Positions 2 through 20,106 of a DNA stretch of 21,464 bases are shown piece after piece. Positions within the stretch are counted from its first letter, which is position 1; each line of letters begins with the position of its first letter. Source of the stretch: a virus. The notes below the pieces were generated by a model. The model searched no databases, was not told the DNA's origin, and saw nothing but the letters and a program-made list of their open reading frames with translations. Both the position numbers and the translations under genes were made by a program. The DNA lies in IMG/VR virus record IMGVR_UViG_3300029266_002008, positions 1 through 21,464 of that record, one strand, 5' to 3'.

Positions 2-742
2 GCGATCGAGGCCAACCCGAAAATGGCTAATGCGCTGCTAACAAATTTTTTCCAGACTAGGAGCGCTGGAAAATCACTGCAAGGTACGAGAAGTTTTCCC
101 GGTGGATTGGAAATGCAGACATTCAAGGATGGCCGCACCGTGTTCAAACAAAATGGCGTAGTCCTCACCAGTTCTGCCGAAATCGACGGTGCATATCGGG
201 CGGTATCAGAGTATCAGGCGAAAACTTCTGGCGGGGTTGAGGGCGCAAAAACTTCTGCTCAGCTACAAGGTGAACGAGATTTTGCAATACGGATTGGCCG
301 AAGGAAAACGGCGACAGCGTTCAACCAAGCAAAAATTATCATCAACAGGATGATGGCAAATTTAGATGGAATGGAAGATGCGCTAGGAAAGGGCGTGGGC
401 CTCATTAATCTTGGGGGGCTAACACAAGGCACGATCTCTGATGAAGGCATTGAATTTATTACACAGCACGAAATGCTCGCAGGCCAGATTTTTCTTGACG
501 CATTCCAAGAGCTAAAAGGCGGTGGCCCCGTCACCGAAATCGAAGGAACCAAGGCCACCAAAGCTAAGGCCTCGATGGACCGCGCCCTGACGCCGAAAGC
601 ATACCGAATTGCTCTGCGACAATATCTAGAAGCGCTCCAGCGCGGTGTTGCTGGCTACGATGCTGAAATTAATAAACAGCCCGTTCTGATGGACGAGACA
701 CCTATCTACTGGGGCGATGCTGCCCCAGTTCCACAGCTTTGA
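2..742 (+). CDS. Probable virion or ejection protein, 5' end cut by window edge
   Basis: The reading frame is open to the left edge: codons before the ATG at 23 read AIEANPK without a stop, so the gene very likely starts outside the window and the ATG at 23 may be internal. The visible 239+ residues are soluble and helix-prone, with no motif I recognise. The gene ends 14 bp before the next large gene on the same strand, so the two are probably co-transcribed. A long gene followed by a Gly/Ala-rich protein at the end of a structural module suggests an internal virion or DNA-ejection component, but this is inference from position. The family is unknown to me. Confidence 0.7.
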   Translation, partial: AIEANPKMANALLTNFFQTRSAGKSLQGTRSFPGGLEMQTFKDGRTVFKQNGVVLTSSAEIDGAYRAVSEYQAKTSGGVEGAKTSAQLQGERDFAIRIGRRKTATAFNQAKIIINRMMANLDGMEDALGKGVGLINLGGLTQGTISDEGIEFITQHEMLAGQIFLDAFQELKGGGPVTEIEGTKATKAKASMDRALTPKAYRIALRQYLEALQRGVAGYDAEINKQPVLMDETPIYWGDAAPVPQL

Positions 743-756
743 TGAGGTAAAGAAAA

Positions 757-2535
757 ATGGCATCGATAACATTAGAAGACCTCAGAAAATCATATCCAGA
801 TAACGGTCTGTCAAAAGACGGGCGGCGATACGGCGAATGGTCGGATCAGGAGTTGGCGAGTGCTTACACGGCAGCGACAGGCATCACGATCAGTGATTTC
901 TCCGACGATGCCGATCAGCCCGAATTAGGTGGCCGCCCGAAATGGACTGAAAATTTCGTTGGAGATGGCAAAATCGACACGCTTGGTGAAGACGCCGGAG
1001 CCGCTATCGGGAGTGGATTTGAGCGCGGCGCTGTTGGCGTGGCAGGCTTGCCCGGCGCAATTATGAACAGCATCGGCATGGGTCTAGAGAAAGCGGGTCT
1101 GGGTGAATTTCCTGACGAGGACCGTTTTTTCGGGTTCCCCGAAGCAAAAGCGGCTGTTAACAAATTAACCGCTAGTCAAGAGGACGGTGGGTTTCTGCCA
1201 GAGGCGCTTTCTGGCGTTGGCACAGACTACAAACCAACCACCCGCACAGGCAAGTATTTGCAAACGGGGGCAGACTTTGCCGTTGGAGCAGTTTTGCCGG
1301 GAACCGGGTTTAACAATTTAGGCCGCAACGTCTTGGCCCCGGCTCTCGTTTCTGAAACCGCTGGACAGGTGACTGAGGGTACTACGTTAGAGCCGTATGC
1401 GAGAATGGCTGGCGGAATTTTTGGCGGCAAGACGCTAGAAATGCTTGAGAACATGGTGGCTGGTGGCAAGGTGAGCCCGGCATATCAGAACGCTGTGGAC
1501 GCGCTCAGAGCGCGTGGTGTAACCCCGACTGCCGGGCAGTCCACTGATACACCAAGGCTCCAAGCGGCTGAGGATAGTTCGGGAGCAGGCCGGGCGTTGT
1601 ACGATCGCGCAGATGAGAGCTATACCAATGCGGCAATCCAAACAGCGATACCAGCATCGTTGCGCCGCACGATCGATGTGCCACAGGGTACTAACGCTAC
1701 GCAGGCGGTAGTGACTATTAGGAACGGCTTGGGCAGAACGATGGACAGCCTCGCGGAGAGTAACAGTTTCGTAGTTACTCCTGATATTCGGCTAGGATTT
1801 CAGAGGACAGCAGGCGAATACGCAGATGTAGTAACCGCTGGCGGTCACAGCGCAATTTTTCAAAATCTTTCAAACCAAATGGCAAACGCAACCGTAGTCA
1901 GTGGCGAAGCATATCAGAGAATGAGAACACAACTATCTAAGTTGACTCAATCGCCGGAGCAGGCCACCCGGGAAGCGGCTGCGGCGGCCCAAAACTTGAT
2001 CGATAACGCGATGGAAGCGTCGATCAGATCGGGGGGAAATAGAACAGAATTGGCACGGTATCAGGACGCTCGACAGGGCTATCGTGATCTGCTTATTCTG
2101 GAAAAGGCGCTCACGTTTGCCAAATCGCGGGGAAGCCGCCCAGTTATTGGGCCAGCGGAACTTGCGAACGCAGCGAAATCAAACGACATCATGGCGTATG
2201 TCCAAGGTAGATCGTCATACAACGATCTAATTCGGTATGGCGCAGACGTTCTGAAAAAGCCCGGCAACACGGGAACTTCGGATCGGCTGGGAGCAAACGC
2301 AATGGCGCTCATGCCCGTTTTGCCGGGCGCAGGGCTGGCGTATGGCAGTGGAGCCGGAGGTGCGGGGATGGCAACAGCCGGGGTGCTTAGCTTGATGGCA
2401 CCAGCAGCGCGAAATCGATTGTTGGCGACCGGAGCCGCACAAAATTATTTCGATATGACATCACGCCGGGGCTTGCCTGTTCCGACCACCAGTTTGCCTG
2501 CTGCAACTGGCGGCCTTCGGCAAGATCAATATTAA
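757..2535 (+). CDS. Large Gly/Ala-rich protein, putative internal virion / DNA-ejection protein
   Basis: This 592-residue protein starts at an ATG preceded by GATGAGGTAAAGAAAA, an acceptable ribosome binding site. The first ~60 residues are charged and start MASITLEDLRKSYPDNG. Residues ~85-110 and ~170-230 are rich in glycine, alanine and hydrophobics, the middle (~240-480) looks helical, and a strongly hydrophobic Gly/Ala segment lies near the C-terminus (about 515-555). Soluble proteins with membrane-prone Gly/Ala stretches are typical of internal virion proteins that podoviruses eject into the cell, so that is the favoured role. I see no transglycosylase or peptidase motif. It is the last structural-type gene before the lysogeny region and is followed by a hairpin that could end the transcript. 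Confidence 0.75.
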   Translation: MASITLEDLRKSYPDNGLSKDGRRYGEWSDQELASAYTAATGITISDFSDDADQPELGGRPKWTENFVGDGKIDTLGEDAGAAIGSGFERGAVGVAGLPGAIMNSIGMGLEKAGLGEFPDEDRFFGFPEAKAAVNKLTASQEDGGFLPEALSGVGTDYKPTTRTGKYLQTGADFAVGAVLPGTGFNNLGRNVLAPALVSETAGQVTEGTTLEPYARMAGGIFGGKTLEMLENMVAGGKVSPAYQNAVDALRARGVTPTAGQSTDTPRLQAAEDSSGAGRALYDRADESYTNAAIQTAIPASLRRTIDVPQGTNATQAVVTIRNGLGRTMDSLAESNSFVVTPDIRLGFQRTAGEYADVVTAGGHSAIFQNLSNQMANATVVSGEAYQRMRTQLSKLTQSPEQATREAAAAAQNLIDNAMEASIRSGGNRTELARYQDARQGYRDLLILEKALTFAKSRGSRPVIGPAELANAAKSNDIMAYVQGRSSYNDLIRYGADVLKKPGNTGTSDRLGANAMALMPVLPGAGLAYGSGAGGAGMATAGVLSLMAPAARNRLLATGAAQNYFDMTSRRGLPVPTTSLPAATGGLRQDQY

Positions 2536-2906: not shown

Positions 2907-3500
2907 TTGAAACTTAAAGAAATTCGGCTTGCTAGGTCGGTATCTCAGGCACAGCTAGCGCTGTTATCTGGGATCACGGCCAGCCAGCTATCAAGAATGG
3001 AACACGGCACTCGTATGCCCACATTATCTACTATCCAGAAAATCGCTACCGCACTCGATGTCACAATCGATGAAATGTTAGCTGGTAAAATTAAAAACAT
3101 TGTCACGCCAATTCTAATACCTTACTATTCTTGTCAGAATGACAACTATCCCAACGATTCGGTGGGGGATGAGCAGATGCTGGTGATAGACCCCCGCATT
3201 GCAAGGGGGTGTGAGGTGATTGATTTGTTTGCATTGCGGGTTCTGGGTGACGAAATGTCACCTACGATTGAGCCCGGCGATACAGTCATTTTCAACAAAG
3301 GCCAAACCGATTTGAACGATGGCGGCATTTTTGTTTTTGACATGCCAAGCGGCCCCGCGATTGGCCGGATCATATACTCTAAATTTTCTGGAACGATCAA
3401 GATTAAATCAGACAATCCTAACCACCAAGACGAGGCCGTTTCGGACGAGAGCGATTTGAAGGTGCTGGGCCGTGTAATCTCAGTGCAGAAAAATCTTTAG
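2907..3500 (+). CDS. CI-like phage repressor: XRE helix-turn-helix plus S24-like domain lacking catalytic residues
   Basis: The 197-residue protein starts at TTG (2907) with GGGGAGA well placed upstream. Residues ~1-60 are a classic lambda-CI/XRE helix-turn-helix (SQAQLALLSGITASQLSRME region). Residues ~90-197 match the LexA/CI S24 fold, with the GDxMxPTIEPGD signature at 114-125 and a closing VLGRV strand. In cleavable S24 proteins a serine sits before the Met of that signature and a lysine precedes the later R-I; here those positions are Glu116 and Gly153. The fold is therefore probably kept for dimerisation while RecA-stimulated self-cleavage is lost. It likely maintains lysogeny by binding early operators. 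It lies upstream of the integrase on the same strand, not divergent from the Cro-like gene as in lambda. Confidence 0.9.
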   Translation: MKLKEIRLARSVSQAQLALLSGITASQLSRMEHGTRMPTLSTIQKIATALDVTIDEMLAGKIKNIVTPILIPYYSCQNDNYPNDSVGDEQMLVIDPRIARGCEVIDLFALRVLGDEMSPTIEPGDTVIFNKGQTDLNDGGIFVFDMPSGPAIGRIIYSKFSGTIKIKSDNPNHQDEAVSDESDLKVLGRVISVQKNL

Positions 3501-3518
3501 TGCCAATACGGCACTAAA
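3496..3518 (+). promoter_or_regulatory. 9-bp perfect stem-loop at the repressor stop codon
   Basis: TTTAGTGCC (3496-3504) and GGCACTAAA (3510-3518) pair perfectly around the loop AATAC, overlapping the TAG stop of the repressor gene. No T run follows on the plus strand; read on the minus strand the hairpin is followed by GATTTTTC, which would suit a weak terminator facing the other way. It could also be a protein-binding palindrome at the start of the attP-like region. Confidence 0.4.
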
Positions 3519-3763
3519 TTAGTTTCAAAAACGTACCCTCAAGACCCGCTTTATTTTTGAAACCTTTTATCTAAGTCCTTGTTTTTAAACAGTGTTAGTA
3601 TAATTGCCCTTTATCTCTAGATTATTTTTTTACTATTAATATCAATACTTTACATAGCGTATACCGCATAGTTTCAAAAGTAGTTTCAAAAAGGCACTTG
3701 ATACTTGTCAGTTGGGCAACTATTTATAGTCAAGGAATTTGGAACAACAACAAGGATAAGAGC
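3519..3763. other. AT-rich leader of the integrase gene with GTTTCAAAA repeats; candidate attP/arm-site region
   Basis: This gap holds no gene I trust. The 9-mer GTTTCAAAA occurs at 3522-3530, inverted at 3555-3563, and twice in tandem at 3671-3679 and 3683-3691 (12-bp spacing). Between them is a very AT-rich stretch (~3590-3655) and a near-palindrome GCGTATACCGC. Repeated short motifs flanking AT-rich DNA beside an integrase gene are what arm-type integrase/excisionase sites look like, so attP is the favoured reading. They could instead be operators for integrase transcription. No host-like tRNA fragment is visible. Confidence 0.4.
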
Positions 3764-4807
3764 ATGAAAAAGCGCAGCCTGCCAAAATATGTATATGCAA
3801 AAAAAATGGGCCAGTACTTATATTTCATACGGGACGGGCAGTGCATCAGTCTTGGTCCATCGGTTAACGCGAACACCCCCGAATTTTTTAAAAAATATAG
3901 TGACTGCTTGGGCGGCGCTGTCAAAAGCAAAAATCGGCGGACTGTGGATGAATTGATAAAAATGTACTGCGCTAGCCCAAAGTATTTAACGAAAACATTC
4001 AACACGAAAAAGAGTTACGCACATAGTTTAAAAAAAATATCTGAGAGCGTAGGCACGGTGTCGGTTAAATTGATGACACGGAAACATATGATCCAAATGC
4101 GCGACAGTTATGCAGAGAAACCAGCGACTGCGAACATGCTATTGGCGGTGATGTCTAACATTTTTGAGACGGGGATAGATGAGGAGTGGGTCACCACCAA
4201 CCCGGCCAAAGGTGTCGGGAATTTGGCTACGAACAACGAGGCAAAAATGCCTTGGTCAGACGCTGAGATCGTTTCGTTTCGCAACGCTGCTGAAGCTGCG
4301 GGTGATGACCGCACCGTGCTGGTCATGGAACTGTGCCTAGCCACTGGCCAGCGGATCAGTGACGTGCTGCTAATGTGCTGGGAGAGCCTGCACATGGATA
4401 AACTTGCTGGCTATGGTCTGCATGTGACACAGAAAAAAACTGGCGCACAAGTTTTCATCCCGTTTACCCATGCTCTACAAAGCATATTGAAACGCATGGG
4501 AAATTCAAACGACTGCACTGGTTACATACTTGAAAACAAAAACTGGAAAAACAAACCACTCACCTATGACGCAGTATTCTCCCCCTTTAATGAAATCCGC
4601 AAGGTGTCAGGCGTCAAGCGTACAATACACGAATTGAGACACACATGTTGCAGCCGCTTGGCCGAAATCGGCCTCGATGATGATGCGATCATGGCGATCT
4701 CTGGCCACGGGTCAAAGAAAATGGTAGGGCGATATTGCCGGGCAGCAGCGCAAAAGCGCCGCGCTGCTGATGCAATCAAAGCAGTAGACGCCGCTGCGTT
4801 TACCTAA
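3764..4807 (+). CDS. int: Tyrosine-recombinase integrase
   Basis: I start the gene at the ATG at 3764 (347 aa), which has AGGATAAG just upstream; an in-frame TTG at 3698 would add 22 residues that look unlike the family. The catalytic set of phage tyrosine integrases is visible: Arg197 (TGQRISD), a Lys at 224/225 (TQKKTG), His289 and Arg292 (IHELRH), His315 (SGHGS) and the nucleophile Tyr324 (VGRYCR). The N-terminal ~55 residues resemble an arm-binding domain, and ~60-150 the SAM-like core-binding domain. It would insert and excise the phage at a host att site. The gene follows the repressor and converges with the minus-strand early operon, sharing 4 bp with its last ORF. Codons 91-97 carry a sequence repeated exactly downstream of the gene. 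Confidence 0.95.
   Translation: MKKRSLPKYVYAKKMGQYLYFIRDGQCISLGPSVNANTPEFFKKYSDCLGGAVKSKNRRTVDELIKMYCASPKYLTKTFNTKKSYAHSLKKISESVGTVSVKLMTRKHMIQMRDSYAEKPATANMLLAVMSNIFETGIDEEWVTTNPAKGVGNLATNNEAKMPWSDAEIVSFRNAAEAAGDDRTVLVMELCLATGQRISDVLLMCWESLHMDKLAGYGLHVTQKKTGAQVFIPFTHALQSILKRMGNSNDCTGYILENKNWKNKPLTYDAVFSPFNEIRKVSGVKRTIHELRHTCCSRLAEIGLDDDAIMAISGHGSKKMVGRYCRAAAQKRRAADAIKAVDAAAFT
4036..4053 (+). repeat. 18-bp exact direct repeat, copy 1 (inside integrase)
   Basis: The bases AATATCTGAGAGCGTAGG occur here and again at 4816-4833, exactly 780 bp apart. This copy encodes part of K-I-S-E-S-V-G in the integrase. An 18-bp exact match is not expected by chance in 21 kb. Confidence 0.85.
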
Positions 4808-12220: not shown

Positions 12221-12569
12221 CCAAGTGCCGGGACTGCCGGGGCTCACCTCATGCGCCCTCGCGAGGGCAGAAATAGGTGCCGATATATCATTCCATTATA
12301 CCGAAACCCAATGAAATCAATGACTTACATGGTCAGGTTTCAACATAGTTTCAAAAAGAGGGCAATTTTGCATGAATTTACCCCCCCCCGGGGGTGGGAT
12401 GGCCGCCCCTCCGCTGGGCTGGTTAAGAGACATACACGCAACAAAAAAAACTCAGAAATGTCTAAAACATAAAATGCGATGTTTGTTTGAGAAAAATGTT
12501 TTTTTTCGCATAAGCTGACATCGTCCACCACGCAGCCTATATTTTTCTCAAACCAGAATGGGGAAAGTT
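12221..12569. other. 349-bp gap upstream of terminase: palindromes, GTTTCAA motifs, possible packaging or control site
   Basis: No convincing gene is present. Structures in order: the palindrome GCCCTCGCGAGGGC (12255-12268); GTTTCAACA and GTTTCAAAA at 12337 and 12348, the same motif as before the integrase; a C9G5 run (12381-12394); the nested ATGCGA/TCGCAT pair (12474-12479 and 12506-12511); and the perfect 13-bp inverted repeat GTTTGAGAAAAAT/ATTTTTCTCAAAC (12485-12497 and 12541-12553). Packaging (cos/pac) sites usually lie near the small terminase gene, so one may be here; late-promoter control is the alternative. Confidence 0.5.
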
Positions 12570-13004
12570 ATGGCTGGACAGCCGCTAAAACGCGCAATGA
12601 TCGAAACGATTGAAAAAGCTGGCGGCGTTGATTGGATTGCTGAGCAGATTGCCAACGGCGATACTGTCACATCGCTGGCGCGCAGCATGGATGTCAGCCG
12701 AAATATTATGTATAAATGGCTGCATTCTGAGCCGGATCGCAGCGCTACGGTCAAGGCGGCTCGCAAGGTGGCGGCTGAGCGTTTGGCTGACGAGGCGATG
12801 GAGTTGGCGGACAATGTTGATGTTGACACGTCGAGCATCGCGAAAGTTCGGGAGCAGATCAGCGTGAGAAAGTGGCGCGCTGCTGCATTTGACCCGGATG
12901 TGTGGGCGACCAACAAAAATCAGACGAATGTGCAGGTAAATGTTGGCGCTCAGCATCTGGACGCTTTGCGCCGGGTACAGATCGAGGTGGCCAGCGATGG
13001 CTAA
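12570..13004 (+). CDS. terS: Terminase small subunit
   Basis: I prefer the ATG at 12570 (144 aa), with GGGGAAAGTT upstream, over the ATG at 12558. The N-terminal ~60 residues hold a helix-turn-helix (DTVTSLARSMDVSRNIMYKWL), followed by a helical region rich in AERLADEAMELADN-type repeats and a REQISVRKWRAAAFDP segment typical of Sf6-like small terminases that use this region for oligomerisation. The protein recognises phage DNA and hands it to the large subunit, whose gene lies one ORF downstream. A strong inverted repeat just upstream could be its recognition site. Confidence 0.85.
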   Translation: MAGQPLKRAMIETIEKAGGVDWIAEQIANGDTVTSLARSMDVSRNIMYKWLHSEPDRSATVKAARKVAAERLADEAMELADNVDVDTSSIAKVREQISVRKWRAAAFDPDVWATNKNQTNVQVNVGAQHLDALRRVQIEVASDG

Positions 13005-13217: not shown

Positions 13218-14630
13218 GTGGCAGACGAAAACCATTTTGTTGAATTTTTGCGGAGATACCGTGACCAGCCTGTTCTTTTTGTGCGCGAGGTATTCGGCGT
13301 TACGCCGGACGCTTGGCAAGGGGAGATGATGATGGCTGTTGCTACTGGCAGCCGCCGTTTGAGCGTTGCCAGCGGCCACGGCGTTGGGAAATCTTCTGGT
13401 GCTAGTTGGATGATGCTCTGGTATTTGCTAACGCGCTACCCTGTTAAGATTGTTTGCACTAGCCCTACCAGCGCACAGTTATTCGACGCGCTTTTTGCGG
13501 AGTGTAGACGTTGGATTAATGAGATGCCGGATCAGCTAAAAGAATTGCTTATTGTTAAATCTGATCGGATTGAATTGGCTGCGGCTCCGGCGGAGGCATT
13601 TATTTCGGCTCGCACGAGCCGGGTAGAAACGCCAGAGGCTCTGGCTGGAATACACAGCGACCATGTGATGCTGGTGGCAGATGAAGCTAGCGGTATTCCT
13701 CCGCAGGTCTACGAGGCTTCAGCAGGCAGTATGTCGGGACAAAACTGTTGTACGTTGTTGCTTGGGAACCCGACCAGATCGAGCGGTTTTTTCTACGACA
13801 CGCACAATAAATTAAAGGCGGATTGGTGGACTAGGAAAGTTAGTTGCATCGATAGCCCTAGAGTTTCTGACGAGTATGTCGCGGAGATGCGGTCTCGTTA
13901 TTCAGAAGACAGCAATCAGTTCCGGGTGCGCGTTTTGGGCGAATTTCCCGTGATTGATGACGATGGCGTCATCCCGCATCATTTAGTTGAGAGTGCGATG
14001 AAGCGCGACATCCCAGATCGCCCGGGCGGCGTTGCTGTTTGGGGCTTGGATGTCAGCAGGTTTGGTTCGGATAAGAGCAGTTTGTGCAAGCGCGTTGGCC
14101 GTGTTGTGACCGAATTTAAGCTGTGGCAGGGGTTGGATTTGATGCAACTTACGGGGGCTCTAAAAGCCGAATATGATGCGTTGCCGCCTAGTGAGCGCCC
14201 AGAGGCCATTTATGTCGATTCCATAGGTTTGGGTTCGGCTGTTGTTGATCGAGGGCAAGAGTTAAATTTGCCTGTGATACCTGTTAATGTGAGCGAAAGC
14301 CCGAGCATGGGCGAGCAGTACATCAATCTGAGGGCTGAGCTTTGGTATAAAGCCAAGGCATTTCTAGAGGCTCGCGATTGTCGGCTGCCGAAAGATGATG
14401 ACTTGTTGGCTGAGCTTGTTGGCCCGACTTACACGTTTTCGTCCAACGGCAAGATCAAGGTCGAGAGTAAGGCCGACATGAAGAAACGGGGCGTAAAAAG
14501 CCCGAATATGGCCGATAGTTTTTGCCTGACCTTGAGCCGCGATGCGGCGATCGGAGTCCACGGCTCAGCGGCCAGTAGAAAATGGAACGCGCCGATCAGG
14601 CGCAACTTGCGCGGGGTTCGCGTGGCATAG
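13218..14630 (+). CDS. terL: Terminase large subunit
   Basis: The 470-residue protein starts at GTG (13218), five bases after the preceding stop, with a poor ribosome binding site, so coupling to the upstream gene is likely. The ATPase domain shows Walker A GHGVGKS (53-59) and Walker B VMLVADE (150-156). The C-terminal RNase H-like nuclease shows GLDVSRFG with Asp278, IYVDSIG with Asp334, and a PNMADSF motif near the end. This is the DNA-packaging motor and nuclease that cuts concatemers. Length and motif order match a complete large terminase. Confidence 0.95.
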   Translation: MADENHFVEFLRRYRDQPVLFVREVFGVTPDAWQGEMMMAVATGSRRLSVASGHGVGKSSGASWMMLWYLLTRYPVKIVCTSPTSAQLFDALFAECRRWINEMPDQLKELLIVKSDRIELAAAPAEAFISARTSRVETPEALAGIHSDHVMLVADEASGIPPQVYEASAGSMSGQNCCTLLLGNPTRSSGFFYDTHNKLKADWWTRKVSCIDSPRVSDEYVAEMRSRYSEDSNQFRVRVLGEFPVIDDDGVIPHHLVESAMKRDIPDRPGGVAVWGLDVSRFGSDKSSLCKRVGRVVTEFKLWQGLDLMQLTGALKAEYDALPPSERPEAIYVDSIGLGSAVVDRGQELNLPVIPVNVSESPSMGEQYINLRAELWYKAKAFLEARDCRLPKDDDLLAELVGPTYTFSSNGKIKVESKADMKKRGVKSPNMADSFCLTLSRDAAIGVHGSAASRKWNAPIRRNLRGVRVA

Positions 14631-14714: not shown

Positions 14715-15335
14715 ATGGCTGGGCTTTTCGGATTCAAAAATTTAGCTGATATGTTTAATGGTGGTGGCGCTGGCTACAGCGGCGACCAATTTATGTCAGG
14801 CGGCGGCAGTAAAATGGACGCCAACAGCGATGGCCGTATTAGCTCGAAAGAGTACGAATTTGATCAGTCCAAACCAAAGGCTAACAGGCAGGCGAAGCAC
14901 GATATTTTCTCGATGTTTAGCAATGACGTTGGCGCGACACCTCGCGGCAGCGGAATGTATCCGACCGGGCCTGCTAGTTTAGTAAACAACGGTGGTATAC
15001 TGGGCCAATTAATGTTCCCGGGTTCCAGAGGGCCAGTGAGCCCAAATGGCGCATATGATCAGAATGCTATGTGGCAGCCTAACGGCCCGGATGATCAACC
15101 GGAGCGCACGTTGATGCAGTTGTTGGATCAATACATGACAGGCCAGCGCGGCCCGATGGATACGATCAATAATAATATGATGGGCCAGCCTGCCCCAAGT
15201 GCGGCAGGGGAAACGCCTGCTTTTCAACAGTATTTGAAGGACAAAAGACGGTCAGAGGCAAGATTTAATAAACCACCAGCATCGATGGAAAAAATAAAGC
15301 AGTTATTCGCTGCGCGGCTGAGAGGGGAAAGCTAA
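14715..15335 (+). CDS. EF-hand-containing protein (206 aa), unknown phage function
   Basis: Residues 35-46 form a canonical calcium-binding EF-hand loop: D35, N37, D39, R41, S43 and E46 sit at the ligand positions, with Gly40 and Ile42 conserved as usual. The rest is Gly-, Asn-, Pro- and Gln-rich (GGGAGYSG, repeated 'GxMxP' stretches), low complexity and probably disordered. The ribosome binding site is weak. It lies between terminase and two large polyvalent-like proteins, where a portal gene would often be, so it may be a virion or co-injected protein. A single EF-hand loop is also seen in dockerin-like modules. Confidence 0.7.
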   Translation: MAGLFGFKNLADMFNGGGAGYSGDQFMSGGGSKMDANSDGRISSKEYEFDQSKPKANRQAKHDIFSMFSNDVGATPRGSGMYPTGPASLVNNGGILGQLMFPGSRGPVSPNGAYDQNAMWQPNGPDDQPERTLMQLLDQYMTGQRGPMDTINNNMMGQPAPSAAGETPAFQQYLKDKRRSEARFNKPPASMEKIKQLFAARLRGES

Positions 15336-16696
15336 TGTCAGGCATTGTAGGAAAATTGATGCGCGGCAGCAGATCGCTTACCGACCTGATCCCGCAGCCG
15401 CCAGCACCCATTTCGGCGATCGGCCACAATATGCCGCCAGCGTCCATGCGGATGCGCCCGATTGACAGTGTAGACAATCCAGCGGGATCAAATCCAAGAT
15501 ACCGTGGCCCTGCCCCGGATCGCTCTGGTGGATCGTTTGAGCGATATCGGCCAAAGAACATTCCCGGGAGAATGGGGCGCTTAATTTCACGGGCCGACGA
15601 TGCCAACGACCCGATCAATTCGATGTTTGATAATTACATTAAAAGCGGCATCCAATTCGGAGGAGAAGATTGGTACAACACCGAAGAAATGCGCGATTGG
15701 TTTGTCGATCTTTTAGGCCCGGATCGGGGCCACGACGAATGGAGCGAATTTGTCGAGATGATCGGCGCTACTAGCACCGGGTCAAATGTCCCTCAAAACC
15801 TCCGGGCTGGCACATTCTACAGAGCGATTGCCGATCCTGACGAGCGGCTCGCGGTTGCTATGCTTGTGAAACAGGGCGGGATAACCCCTGCGGATGCGGC
15901 CAAAAAATTAGGCATTAGTGTGCCGAATGCGCCGAAGGGATACGGTTACGGGCATGTGATGCAAAAGGGGCAGGCAGGCAACATTGTAAATCAGCTAGAC
16001 GGCAAGTGGGATCGCCAGACGCCGCCTGATTTGAAGGGCGCGGCGCTATCTAAGCATTTGCAGGCAAATCCAAAAGTGAAAGGCTTTGCGAACAGCCTCA
16101 AGGGCAGCGATACAAATATTGCGGCTGACAAGCATTTTATGCGAATGTTGGCGATGGCGGACGGCGGCTCTGACTTTTTGTCGGGTCAAGCGCAATTGTC
16201 TCAGGAGAACATCGCGATTGTTAAAAAGGCTTTTGGGCCTCGCAAAATGAAAAAATACATAACGATCCGAAAGACAGGCACCGGGCAAGAGATCACCACG
16301 GTTAATTTAGCCAAAGCGGTTTCGGACGGCGTCATCAAATCGACTGCCCCGTTTTCGCGGATGCCAACGGCTTGGCTGGATACGCCCAAAGGAACAGAAT
16401 ATGCGGCGCTGGAGGAAATGGCGCAACGTCTAGCCAAAAACTACAACATGACGCCTGCGCAGTTTCAAGCTAGCCTTTGGATGGGCGCTGGTGACATCAC
16501 CGGGCTCGCTGACGAGAGCCAAGGCACGGCGATGGAGTTGTTCCGCAGAACGCTTGACAAGCGCGCTGGTGAGCGCGGCTTGAGCCGTCAGGGCATGCTC
16601 AAAGATTTTATTGTAAACCGCTCCCCGCTGGCGGTAGGCGGCACAGGCATAATGGGGTCAATGATGTCTCCCCGAGCAGATGAAACAGGGCAATAA
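15335..16696 (+). CDS. Large protein (453 aa) resembling part of phage polyvalent proteins
   Basis: It overlaps the preceding stop by one base. The N-terminal ~85 residues are Pro/Arg-rich and disordered, with the motif IGHN at 29-32. From ~105 the protein has a globular region with WYNTEEMRDWFVDLLG, then GATSTGSNVPQNLRAG, and near 315-385 PTAWLDTPKGTEYAALEEMA and MTPAQFQASLWMGAGD. I recognise this layout as like a domain of uncharacterised (DUF7178-like) modules in phage polyvalent proteins; the match is from memory and tentative. The C-terminus is Gly/Met-rich and hydrophobic. It probably works with the next protein, perhaps after injection. Confidence 0.7.
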   Translation: MSGIVGKLMRGSRSLTDLIPQPPAPISAIGHNMPPASMRMRPIDSVDNPAGSNPRYRGPAPDRSGGSFERYRPKNIPGRMGRLISRADDANDPINSMFDNYIKSGIQFGGEDWYNTEEMRDWFVDLLGPDRGHDEWSEFVEMIGATSTGSNVPQNLRAGTFYRAIADPDERLAVAMLVKQGGITPADAAKKLGISVPNAPKGYGYGHVMQKGQAGNIVNQLDGKWDRQTPPDLKGAALSKHLQANPKVKGFANSLKGSDTNIAADKHFMRMLAMADGGSDFLSGQAQLSQENIAIVKKAFGPRKMKKYITIRKTGTGQEITTVNLAKAVSDGVIKSTAPFSRMPTAWLDTPKGTEYAALEEMAQRLAKNYNMTPAQFQASLWMGAGDITGLADESQGTAMELFRRTLDKRAGERGLSRQGMLKDFIVNRSPLAVGGTGIMGSMMSPRADETGQ

Positions 16697-16697
16697 A

Positions 16698-19010
16698 ATG
16701 GGTATATTAGATTTTCTAAATAGCCGTTATTCGCCGCAACCTGAAAATCGCTTTGGCGACATCGGTGGCAAGGCCGGAAGACAGATGCTCAGCGATGCGA
16801 AGATGATCGGCCAGAACGCTGGCAACGTGACTTATAATGCTCTGCCGGAGTTTATGCGTGGCGGCATTATGGAGCCCGTAAACCGGGCGATCACTTATCC
16901 GGTGGATATGGCGCTCGCGGCGCTGACGGGCGCAACAGGCGCAACAGAAAAAGCTGTGGGTTACGCCTCAGAGATTATTGGCGGCGATACGGCAAGCGAA
17001 AAAAGGCTCTTCAAGGACGTGATGGGTGGCCTTGAAGTGGCAGGCTTTGGCCCTCATGGCAAACTGGCTGGAATACTCTCTGGGCCTGCTATGCGGTCTC
17101 TGAGGGCTGGTATGAACAATCGAGGGCAGATGCCCACTGTCGGCACCAATTTTGCCAACATTGGCCACAACGGCGGCCCGTCTTTGGAGCCGTTACCAAG
17201 GCCTAAATTACAGGATATGTATTCGCCCTCAATTAAAGCCGCTGAGGCCATGCCGCAGTCAAAAGGGACATACGAGCAACTGCGCGCAATGATGATCAAA
17301 GGCGGCGCAAAAGAGGACGAATTAGAGTGGTCGGGATTTGACAATAAATTTCGGGACATGCCCAAAGTAACAAAAGACGGTATTATCACATATTTGCAGC
17401 ATTATGCAGGCAATAGCATGCTCGATGAATCCAGTGATACGGCCCCCGGTATTTTGGATGATGATAGCACGTTGAGTTCGGACGAATTGTCTTCTCGTTG
17501 GGTCGAGGATCGTCTGGATGACGAGACAGAATACTACATGGATAGCGTCCGGTACGACATGCTCTACGGCGGCGGCCAAGACACAGTCCAATATTCAGAT
17601 TTAAACGCAGAGGAAGCGCAAAAAATTGCTGATGAAATGGGCTTTGGGAGTGTCGAGCTATTTGAAGAAAATTTAATGAACAAATTTCAAGGTGACGATA
17701 CTTGGATGACGCCTCAAGATTACGGCAGAGACAACACAAGATCGGGCTACACACTGCATGCTGACGAAGACGAAGCGCTCGACTACACTATGAGTTATGA
17801 ATCAGCCCGGGAGTATGCGGATGAGAGCTTACGAGAACAGGTAGGCCAAATGGATGTGGTGGACGTTCGCGATGAGCTTGGCCTGTCAGTTTCGGCAGAT
17901 ATTGGCGAAGTTCAGTACAGTGATTATTTCACTACCGGGGTCGAAGATTACACAGAAAATAGGTATCAATATGTGCCGCCTGACCAAAACTTGCGCGGTG
18001 GCACTTTCGATCAATCTCATTGGTTAGAAGAGGACAATTTGGTGCATACCCGCACCGGGCTGTTCCCCGTAATAGGCGGCGGCAAAACACATCACGTTGG
18101 TGAAATCCAGTCAGATTGGGGCCAACAGTTGCGTAAAACAAAAGAGTCCACTGATTATCATAATCTTACCAACCCAAATCAGGCTGGCCCATCATACCGT
18201 TCTAAAACATTTGACGAGCAAGCTGTCGAGGGGCGTTATCAACAGGCAAGAATTGAAGTGGGCGACCTCCAAAGGTCGGCCAGATCAGCGTTTAAGTTTA
18301 GCCAGAAAATAGCCGATTCTGATGAAGCGATCGACCATATAAATGTTCTTGGAGACATTAAAAAATATCAAGAAGATGTGCTGGGCATACCGCACAATCC
18401 TAATCCTTCTGATGGCACTAGCCAATTATATGAGCCAAACAATAATGTCCTACTTTCTTACTTAATGGATGAAAATTCAAACACCACAATTGCGACTGAT
18501 TTTCGTGACCGTTACGGCGCACGATATGCTGAAATGATGCCGGACTATCAAGCTGGTCTGAAACAGAACAATACCCTGAGTGCGAAAGAGGGTGGCCCAC
18601 TGATCAGCAGTACAAACAAATGGGTTGATTTCGCCCTGCGGCAAGAACTCCAAAAAGCAATTAATTCTGGCGAGGATTACATAACATTGGGGTCGGCTGA
18701 CATGGCGTCAGATATGACAATGGAGCGCAGTGAGGGCGGCGAATTTTACGACAAAATTGTGCCTCAAAGGATGAAAGCGGTTCTAAAGAAATTGGACTCA
18801 AAAGCCAAATTGGAGCGCGTCACTATCCAGACCGGGGACGGCGAACGAAATGTTCTAGGGCTGCGCCTTACCGACGATCTGGTGCGCAAAATTGCGGCCA
18901 AGGGTGGCATACCATTATTTTCAGCAGCGCTAGCCGCTCAAGGGCCAGCATCACAGCGCGCTGATCAGCCCAAGGGCAACGGCATCATGGCCGCGCTGAG
19001 CGGAACATAG
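16698..19010 (+). CDS. Large protein (770 aa) with EIQSDW domain, phage polyvalent-protein type
   Basis: I prefer the ATG at 16698, one base after the previous stop, with AGGG upstream. Motifs in order: IGHNGGPSLE (155-164); a YEQLRAMMIKGGAKEDELEWSG block and PKVTKDGII (192-230); an acidic insert (~250-430); HVGEIQSDW (466-474); an STNKWVDFAL helix (~638); GEFYDKIVP (681-689); and GIPLFS near the end (737-742). These match the EIQSDW module I know from large phage polyvalent proteins, whose function is unproven but which are thought to be delivered with the DNA. It is a stand-alone version here, with an unusually long acidic middle. Not a portal or capsid gene. Confidence 0.8.
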   Translation: MGILDFLNSRYSPQPENRFGDIGGKAGRQMLSDAKMIGQNAGNVTYNALPEFMRGGIMEPVNRAITYPVDMALAALTGATGATEKAVGYASEIIGGDTASEKRLFKDVMGGLEVAGFGPHGKLAGILSGPAMRSLRAGMNNRGQMPTVGTNFANIGHNGGPSLEPLPRPKLQDMYSPSIKAAEAMPQSKGTYEQLRAMMIKGGAKEDELEWSGFDNKFRDMPKVTKDGIITYLQHYAGNSMLDESSDTAPGILDDDSTLSSDELSSRWVEDRLDDETEYYMDSVRYDMLYGGGQDTVQYSDLNAEEAQKIADEMGFGSVELFEENLMNKFQGDDTWMTPQDYGRDNTRSGYTLHADEDEALDYTMSYESAREYADESLREQVGQMDVVDVRDELGLSVSADIGEVQYSDYFTTGVEDYTENRYQYVPPDQNLRGGTFDQSHWLEEDNLVHTRTGLFPVIGGGKTHHVGEIQSDWGQQLRKTKESTDYHNLTNPNQAGPSYRSKTFDEQAVEGRYQQARIEVGDLQRSARSAFKFSQKIADSDEAIDHINVLGDIKKYQEDVLGIPHNPNPSDGTSQLYEPNNNVLLSYLMDENSNTTIATDFRDRYGARYAEMMPDYQAGLKQNNTLSAKEGGPLISSTNKWVDFALRQELQKAINSGEDYITLGSADMASDMTMERSEGGEFYDKIVPQRMKAVLKKLDSKAKLERVTIQTGDGERNVLGLRLTDDLVRKIAAKGGIPLFSAALAAQGPASQRADQPKGNGIMAALSGT

Positions 19011-19019
19011 GGGGTTGTT

Positions 19020-19235
19020 ATGACCAAAGAGGACAAAAGACACTTAGACTATGAGGTATACCAAAAAAACAGGCGGCATATGTGCTGGTGCAGTTTGGGC
19101 ATGATGTCGGTTTGCACTATCGCAACTGTTCTGGACCCGGGGCGGATGGAAGCAGCGGAAAGTATTTTGATGGCACAGTTTCTGGCCCTTTCGGGCCTTG
19201 TGGCGAGTTACTTCATCGTGGGGCAAAAAGAATGA
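19020..19235 (+). CDS. Two-span membrane protein (71 aa), holin-like or antiholin
   Basis: GGGGG before the ATG at 19020 is a strong ribosome binding site. The product has a charged N-terminus (MTKEDKRHLDYEVYQKNRR), a first hydrophobic segment CWCSLGMMSVCTIATVL and a second, SILMAQFLALSGLVASYFIV. Its stop overlaps the next start as ATGA. Two membrane spans directly before a 3TM holin and an endolysin suggest a second holin or an antiholin that times lysis. No sequence family is recognised. Confidence 0.65.
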   Translation: MTKEDKRHLDYEVYQKNRRHMCWCSLGMMSVCTIATVLDPGRMEAAESILMAQFLALSGLVASYFIVGQKE

Positions 19236-19639
19236 GCATACTGAATGCATTGATCGGCCCGGTAACGGGCCTACTGGACAGCGTTATTACTGATAAGGAT
19301 GAGCGCGCCCGGTTGGCCCATGAGATCGCCACAATGAGCGAGAAACACGCTCAGCAGGCATTGCTTGGCCAGTTAGAAATAAACAAAGCAGAGGCGGCCT
19401 CAGGATCGCTTTTTAAGGGCGGCTGGCGTCCGATGGTGGGCTGGATCGCGGCACTTTCGTTCGGTTACACATATTTACTCTACCCGATTATCGGCGCGTT
19501 TTACGGCCACTATTTTGAGTTTAATTTCGATGAAATAGCGCCGAAACTTGACGATGGACCGATGCTCACTGTTTTGGCCGGAATGCTGGGGATTGGAACG
19601 CTCAGAACGTATGAAAAACAAAAAGGGTTGACCAAATGA
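19232..19639 (+). CDS. 3TM-type holin
   Basis: The 135-residue protein begins MSILNALIGPVTGLLDSVI, continues with a charged helix (TDKDERARLAHEIATMSEK), then a WRPMVGWIAALSFGYTYLLYP membrane region and a final hydrophobic segment DGPMLTVLAGMLGIGTLRTYE. This matches the pattern of the Holin_3TMs family found beside phage endolysins. It would open the inner membrane for the endolysin, which has no signal peptide. ATGA overlaps on both sides bind it into one lysis unit. Confidence 0.8.
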   Translation: MSILNALIGPVTGLLDSVITDKDERARLAHEIATMSEKHAQQALLGQLEINKAEAASGSLFKGGWRPMVGWIAALSFGYTYLLYPIIGAFYGHYFEFNFDEIAPKLDDGPMLTVLAGMLGIGTLRTYEKQKGLTK

Positions 19640-20106
19640 GTTACAAACTATCCAAGCGATCATTAAAGCGGCTTGACGGCGTACACCCACAACTTGTTGA
19701 AACTGTTAAAATCGCGCTGGGCAAATACGCAGTGTATGATTTTGGTGTTACCTGCGGCGTCAGGGATTTGAAAACCCAGAAAAAACTGTTGAAAAGTGGC
19801 GCGTCGAAAACATTAAAAAGCAAACATTTAGTACAATCAGACGGGTATTCACATGCTGTCGATCTGGTTGCTTATGATGGCTCTGTCAGGTGGGAGATGC
19901 CCTACTACATTGCGACAGCAGAGGCGATGCGTGACGCCGCGCAAGAGGTAGGTCTAGCGATGACTTGGGGCGCTTGTTGGCACGTCAAGGACTATTGCGC
20001 AGTCGAAGAAGATTGTGACGATTTGATGGACGATTACATTGCCCTGCGCCGATCTCAGTCGCGAAAAGCCTTTCTCGATGGACCACATTGGCAAGCCCGG
20101 TTTTAA
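19636..20106 (+). CDS. Endolysin, M15-type peptidase
   Basis: The 156-residue protein has the zinc-peptidase signature of VanY/M15 enzymes: S-K-H (His64), then G-Y-S-H-A-V-D-L with Asp76, and a late FLDGPHWQ with His151 as the third ligand. It lacks a signal peptide, fitting holin-dependent release. It would cut peptide bonds in peptidoglycan (endopeptidase or carboxypeptidase activity). The usual PHFE end is PHWQ here, and a ~35-residue acidic insert (CAVEEDCDDLMDD) lies between WG and PH. The ATGA overlap with the holin and end-overlap with the convergent regulator are clear. Confidence 0.85.
   Translation: MSYKLSKRSLKRLDGVHPQLVETVKIALGKYAVYDFGVTCGVRDLKTQKKLLKSGASKTLKSKHLVQSDGYSHAVDLVAYDGSVRWEMPYYIATAEAMRDAAQEVGLAMTWGACWHVKDYCAVEEDCDDLMDDYIALRRSQSRKAFLDGPHWQARF

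Follow-up and report, generated by a model that had tools for sequence, protein, structure and literature searches.

What is the function of the two long genes that follow the terminase genes of a marine phage, at a place where its portal and capsid genes would be expected? The DNA analysed here (the window) is a 21,464-nucleotide IMG/VR virus record. An earlier note on it had described ORFs of 453 and 770 aa at positions 15335-19010 as two stand-alone polyvalent-type proteins located where portal and capsid genes are expected. Both ORFs are present as described; they are called p453 and p776 below. The finding is real and provides a useful case, although the claim about position has to be corrected.

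Gene order of the window

The genes in this part of the window run in the order TerS, TerL, p206, p453, p776, holin and endolysin. The small (Sf6-type, 12558..13004) and large (13218..14630) terminase subunits are recognized by profile matches, as are the holin (GTA_holin_3TM, 19082..19639) and the endolysin (M15-type peptidase family, 19636..20106). All features with coordinates in this list and below for which a strand was assigned are on the plus strand, and small minus-strand ORFs are found at the right end of the record (21464).

The p206, p453 and p776 genes form a tightly packed trio. p206 (14715..15335) is a Gly/Asn-rich protein with an EF-hand-like loop (14811-14855, DANSDGRISSKE). 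It is translationally coupled to p453 (15335..16696), the ATG of which overlaps the p206 stop codon as TAATG, and p206 relatives are located 5' of p453 in many loci. The EIQSD-type protein p776 (16698..19010) has 770 aa if translated from ATG 16698 and 776 aa if translated from ATG 16680; its residues are numbered here in the 776-aa frame. ATG 16698 follows the p453 stop codon at a distance of 1 nt and is preceded by a GGG-type ribosome-binding site; the closest relative (L002) has its start at the matching position. Judged by these features it appears to be the better start.

At the other end of the window, p239 (23..742) has a match to phrog_2534, a family annotated 'released from the phage upon host infection', and is among the most distal of the late genes. 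It is adjoined by p592 (757..2535), a putative ejection-type protein. The ORFs at 2907-4807, as far as can be judged by reading them, include a tyrosine-recombinase-like integrase and a repressor-like gene, which suggest a temperate phage. In contrast to this hint, relatives of p453 are present in only 1 of 84,980 species genomes searched as hosts, on a single MAG contig (Halobacteriovorax, L134).

Position of the portal and capsid genes

A syntenic 32-kb record (L022) contains TerL, p206, p453, holin, endolysin, portal, scaffold and major capsid genes and, further on, p239 and p592 in the same order as in the window. About 1.5 kb of small ORFs separate its endolysin and portal genes; with this spacing, the end of the window is projected to fall ~0.2 kb short of the portal gene. 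As the distal late genes of the L022 record, p239 and p592, are found at the left end of the window, the map of the window is an L022-type map that is permuted and broken within the portal-to-tail stretch, which is missing. The portal and capsid genes would therefore lie beyond the right end of the window.

In the relatives, separate genes for portal (phrog_1216), scaffold (phrog_3927) and major capsid (phrog_1328) accompany p453, which is situated either before or after the portal gene. Pfam and PHROG scans give no portal or capsid match to p453 or p776. The apparent location of the two genes where portal and capsid are expected is thus a contig-end effect: in relatives that are long enough, the separate genes are found further downstream.

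Conservation of p453 and its relationship to DUF7178

Homologues of p453 are found at 61 loci in IMG/VR with identities of 38 to 72%, similar to those of the terminase in the same loci (39-73%). Together with the relatives of p776 described below, they indicate that both ORFs are real conserved genes. Conservation as strong as this could equally well be due to a structural role.

Residues 233-273 of p453 match the Pfam family PF23802 (DUF7178) with an E value of 0.002 and 18.5 bits, below the curated cut-off of 27 bits. Nevertheless, among the 25 aligned relatives 20 have a DUF7178 match at E<=0.01 (best 4.8e-6), and two relatives, CRP-212 gp38 (35.3 bits) and MJing1 WKV16971 (29.1 bits), exceed the cut-off and are both recovered by the p453 profile. 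The link to DUF7178 made in the earlier note, weak in the window protein itself, is thus borne out by its family, and p453 is a divergent relative of DUF7178. The two have a common K...D-x-H signature. The window protein differs from canonical DUF7178 in its score under the cut-off, in being single-domain and in its shorter Lys-Asp loop (18 versus 20-23 residues). DUF7178 is not named, and no function assigned to it was found, in the literature searched.

DUF7178-type proteins resembling p453 are encoded by the Roseobacter phages CRP-901 (gp68), CRP-212 (gp38) and CRP-738 (gp40) and by the Microcystis phage MJing1 (WKV16971). Their genes are beside portal and head genes, and all are annotated 'hypothetical protein'. 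Unlike the window, CRP-901, CRP-212 and MJing1 are without a p776-type protein, and the DUF7178 domain of CRP-212 is part of a 1203-aa protein whereas p453 stands alone. In some related loci the slot filled by p453 contains other proteins of ~390-440 aa (L106:7540-8853, L086:5527-6687 and L088:6897-8180). No distant relationship of slot proteins of this type to p453 was detected, and the two that were scanned (L106 and L086) have no Pfam match.

Predicted glycosylase-like fold of p453

The structure of p453 was modeled from 25 sequences with a pLDDT of 85 and a pTM of 0.82. Among the fold families covered by the structural comparison, the top solved structures matching the model are all 8-oxoguanine DNA glycosylases: TmOgg (3n0u, Z 9.7, 181 residues, 3.9 Å), SsOgg (3fhg, Z 9.3) and AGOG (Z 5.7). 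The first match outside the OGG families has a Z score of 4.3. The stretch that superposes on the Ogg2 structures comprises residues 86-399 (15590..16531).

OGG enzymes rely for catalysis on a Lys and an Asp, both within the HhH-GPD motif (PMC3397491). The proposed counterparts in p453 are Lys247 (16073..16075) and, 18 residues further, Asp265 (16127..16129), which is followed by His267. All three residues are identical in 25/25 aligned sequences, down to 36% identity, and the pattern PKxxGF-x13-DxH is maintained in 67/71 ORFs of the p453 family. Three of the four exceptions are truncated by contig ends, and the fourth, CRP-212, is a variant with K...VDTH. The spacing of 18 is also that of Ogg2, the sequences of which read K-x17-D-[RK]-H. 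The corresponding stretch is KPATFAENVYGNLDGVTVDTHAIR in CRP-212 and KVRSFYNNILMPWSDRGEITVDTH in a 3051-aa phage protein described below, and these two sequences bridge p453 to the VDTHV of EndoIII-type proteins. The best local alignment of DUF7178 with bacterial HhH-GPD profiles, which was unguided, places K on K and DTH on DTH with a weak score (E 0.03). The register of Lys247 and Asp265 is thus set by the spacing and by this weak profile alignment, not by coordinates.

Identity of p453 to Ogg2 is ~13%, and the hairpin is degenerate: the Gly-x-Gly that precedes the Lys is missing and p453 reads A-N-P. An hhalign comparison of p453 with one Ogg2 protein was not significant, the HhH-GPD Pfam model PF00730 does not match the window protein, and sequence profile searches of the PDB with the p453 or p776 family gave nothing significant. 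p453 also differs from Ogg2 in its phage late-gene setting and in helix-turn-helix-like and β-hairpin insertions. A weak HTH_23 match, under the cut-off, is located at residues 168-196 (15836-15922), and this part of p453 is possibly an insertion relative to the glycosylases. Considering the model and the conserved residues together, p453 very probably has a glycosylase-like (HhH-GPD) fold. That it is an active glycosylase is plausible, with the chances about evenly balanced.

The probable GNAT-like domain of p776

A scan of IMG/VR with the p776 sequence alone found nothing, and an alignment query recovered 58 loci. A tblastn search of 50,697 isolate phages with p776 and two of its relatives gave no match, and an EIQSD domain of this form is therefore known here from metagenomes only. 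No Pfam or PHROG family matches p776. The EIQSDW module to which the earlier note had drawn attention is present (18102..18119; GEIQSDW, residues 474-480), and its core is conserved: G474, E475, Q477, S478 and Q482 are near-invariant over 36 relatives. The W of the motif varies among them, and the strict GEIQSDW DNA pattern is found in 5 contigs only.

The N-terminal ~165 residues of p776 have no confident structure and are followed by one folded domain, which is confidently modeled (residues 170-750, 17187..18929) and contains long helical insertions. Plain Foldseek against the PDB gave no significant match (best E 0.29). In a second structural comparison nearly all matches were GNAT folds, the best being the C-terminal domain of ICL2 (Z 8.3); AtaT, KacT, NatD and HAT1 are also among them, as is chimallin. 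In the model the EIQSDW motif is positioned between a strand (469-477) and a helix (479-497), which would correspond to the CoA loop of a GNAT. GNATs often have a general acid in the helix that follows the fifth strand. The near-invariant Tyr690 (18747..18749) is located in such a helix and might be a candidate for this role. The CoA-binding motif Q/R-x-x-G-x-G/A after the fourth strand is absent, and the sequence of p776 there is GEIQSDWGQQLR. p776 is probably GNAT-like, and a putative acyltransferase.

The idea that the two domains are of the same kind is not supported as far as their folds are concerned, p453 being glycosylase-like (HhH-GPD) and p776 probably GNAT-like. In one related locus (L112:12739-16191), a 1150-aa protein with histone H1-like HC2 repeats is encoded between a p776-type gene and the terminase and portal genes.

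The IGHN tag

The motif that p453 and p776 had been reported to share is found in both. It reads IGHNMPP in p453 (from residue 29, 15419..15439), at the junction of the disordered N-terminus and the folded domain, and IGHNGGP in p776 (from residue 161, 17160..17180), immediately ahead of the region that folds in the model. Among the ORFs of 118 loci, the pattern [ILMFV]G[HD]N.[GP]P occurs 57 times, with 0.3 expected from shuffled ORFs: 37 times in p453, 13 times in p776 and 7 times in ART-like proteins, which are three unrelated carriers of the tag. Because p453 or p776 served to select these loci, and many of them nearly duplicate one another, the family counts lack independence; what is informative is that no other gene of the 118 loci has the tag.

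An unselected scan found GHNGGPP in at least 120 contigs, compared to 52 for a scrambled heptapeptide. Among the matches listed, the motif is in the longest reading frame in 67/81 copies (5/52 for the scrambled one) and is flanked by hydrophobic residues on both sides in 62/81 (1/52). The 81 copies listed have 62 different DNA spellings. This rules out a DNA-level repeat, and the tag is therefore a protein-level motif.

In the form [ILMV]GHNGGPP[LMI] the motif is widespread in phage proteins (L146-L225). Of 18 unrelated groups of tag carriers scanned, 12 consist of terminases or portal proteins, and 2 of exonucleases. Two contigs have the tag in both of two adjacent genes, the first of which in L160 is the terminase large subunit. 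No mention of the IGHN motif was found in the literature searched. Recruitment to the packaging vertex and processing are guesses as to its role.

Stand-alone and multi-domain forms

Stand-alone versions of domains that elsewhere are parts of multi-domain phage proteins, including giant ones presumably injected with the phage DNA, had been suspected here, and this is supported. DUF7178 is found (E=5e-27) in a protein of at least 3051 aa from the Rhodobacteraceae phage LS06-2018-MD07, which also contains ART-PolyVal (E 1e-4, under the cut-off) and methyltransferase domains; a gene annotated 'internal virion protein' is located near by. In L034, p453 forms the C-terminal half of a 975-aa protein, the N-terminal part of which has a tail-lysozyme domain. 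The folds of both p453 and p776 match large polyvalent-type proteins in BFVD. The domains are also found side by side as separate genes. In L072 the gene before the p776 relative clearly encodes a DUF7178 protein (E 3e-20), and in L096, L083, L084 and others this place is taken by a solo ART-PolyVal-like gene (E 1.9e-4, under the cut-off). The solo ART-PolyVal-like proteins beside p776 relatives at L083:1611-2759 and L096:7836-8984 have an IGHNNPP linker. Domains of the same types are thus fused in some phages, whereas this group encodes them separately.

The account of polyvalent proteins by Iyer et al. (2017, PMC5512222) already includes solo forms of their domains. It makes no mention of DNA glycosylases, and it describes its two GNAT families as RimI-like. 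The window genes encode the same kinds of domains and are likewise close to virion genes. In contrast to the polyvalent proteins, each domain here has its own gene: p453 and p776 have one folded domain each, not the two or more disparate domains per polypeptide, and fusions are found in their relatives only.

Possible function of p453 and p776

By combining these observations, it is possible to propose a function for the two proteins. On balance, it is slightly favored that p453 and p776 are separately encoded, virion-delivered effector-type proteins of a podovirus-like marine phage, with p453 acting on DNA, p776 acting on a host factor, and the tag used for loading or processing at the vertex. 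Both would be expressed late, packaged into the virion and ejected into the host with the phage DNA. p453 would then most likely excise bases from DNA or act on them in a related way, either to repair a damaged incoming genome or to attack DNA that belongs to the host or bears defence modifications. p776, with its GNAT-like domain behind a disordered N-terminus, would probably modify or bind a host factor. The IGHN tag that precedes each fold would probably serve for loading or processing at the portal vertex. The context of the two genes in related phages, namely the 3051-aa ART-PolyVal/methyltransferase protein, the fusion to a lysozyme half and the solo ART-PolyVal-like neighbors, speaks for effectors of this type. 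A search of the literature for a virion-borne glycosylase found nothing.

The strongest competing explanation would give the proteins a structural role in the head. p453 and p776 might be non-enzymatic proteins of head assembly or of the portal vertex, their enzyme folds having been recruited for morphogenesis or for the organization of packaged DNA. The genes are always beside those for terminase, portal, scaffold or capsid, p453 is conserved about as well as the terminase, p776 is without the GNAT CoA motif and has a phage chimallin among its structural matches, and the tag is elsewhere frequent in terminase and portal proteins. However, an invariant glycosylase Lys and Asp with a neighboring His would be unexpected in a purely structural protein, and homologous domains are found in proteins with ART and methyltransferase domains. 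Furthermore, p776 is missing from many loci that carry p453, and unrelated proteins fill the slot in others, so that these proteins are not universally needed. A purely structural role is thus rather doubtful, though it has to be taken seriously.

A bolder version of the effector proposal would make the tag [ILMV]GHN-x-[GP]P a portal-vertex targeting peptide of many phages. It would mark terminase and portal as well as three effectors (glycosylase-like, GNAT-like and ART) that are loaded via the vertex and injected, and the phage would thus inject a DNA glycosylase. Taken as a whole, this is quite unlikely.

It is very unlikely that p453 is instead an enzyme of DNA base hypermodification, of the amino acid:DNA transferase type with an HhH-GPD-like fold, which acts in the infected cell at replication or packaging and is not injected. 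The glycinyltransferase PUGT of phage PaMx11 (8z2n) is the fifth structural match of p453 (Z 4.3), and thymidine hypermodification genes are carried by related marine podoviruses (PMC9599517). However, the Ogg2 glycosylases match p453 far better, hypermodification genes in other phages are near the DNA polymerase gene (PMC9599517) and not the head cluster, and no thymidylate-synthase-like partner was seen among the subset of window ORFs scanned. Finally, there is next to no chance that p453 and p776 represent a diverged portal and a diverged capsid gene of the phage, as their place after the terminase and the portal-sized 770 aa could suggest, because synteny with separate genes in the same loci of relatives rules this out and the models match other folds.

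For DUF7178, a recurrent domain of giant phage proteins, the glycosylase-like fold and the preserved catalytic pair amount to a testable prediction. The testing of single domains is hard with proteins of 1000-3000 aa. In this group the glycosylase-like, GNAT-like and ART-type domains are separate small genes, and each can thus be expressed and tested alone. Through the shared tag, the possible recruitment of such proteins to virions can be approached directly.
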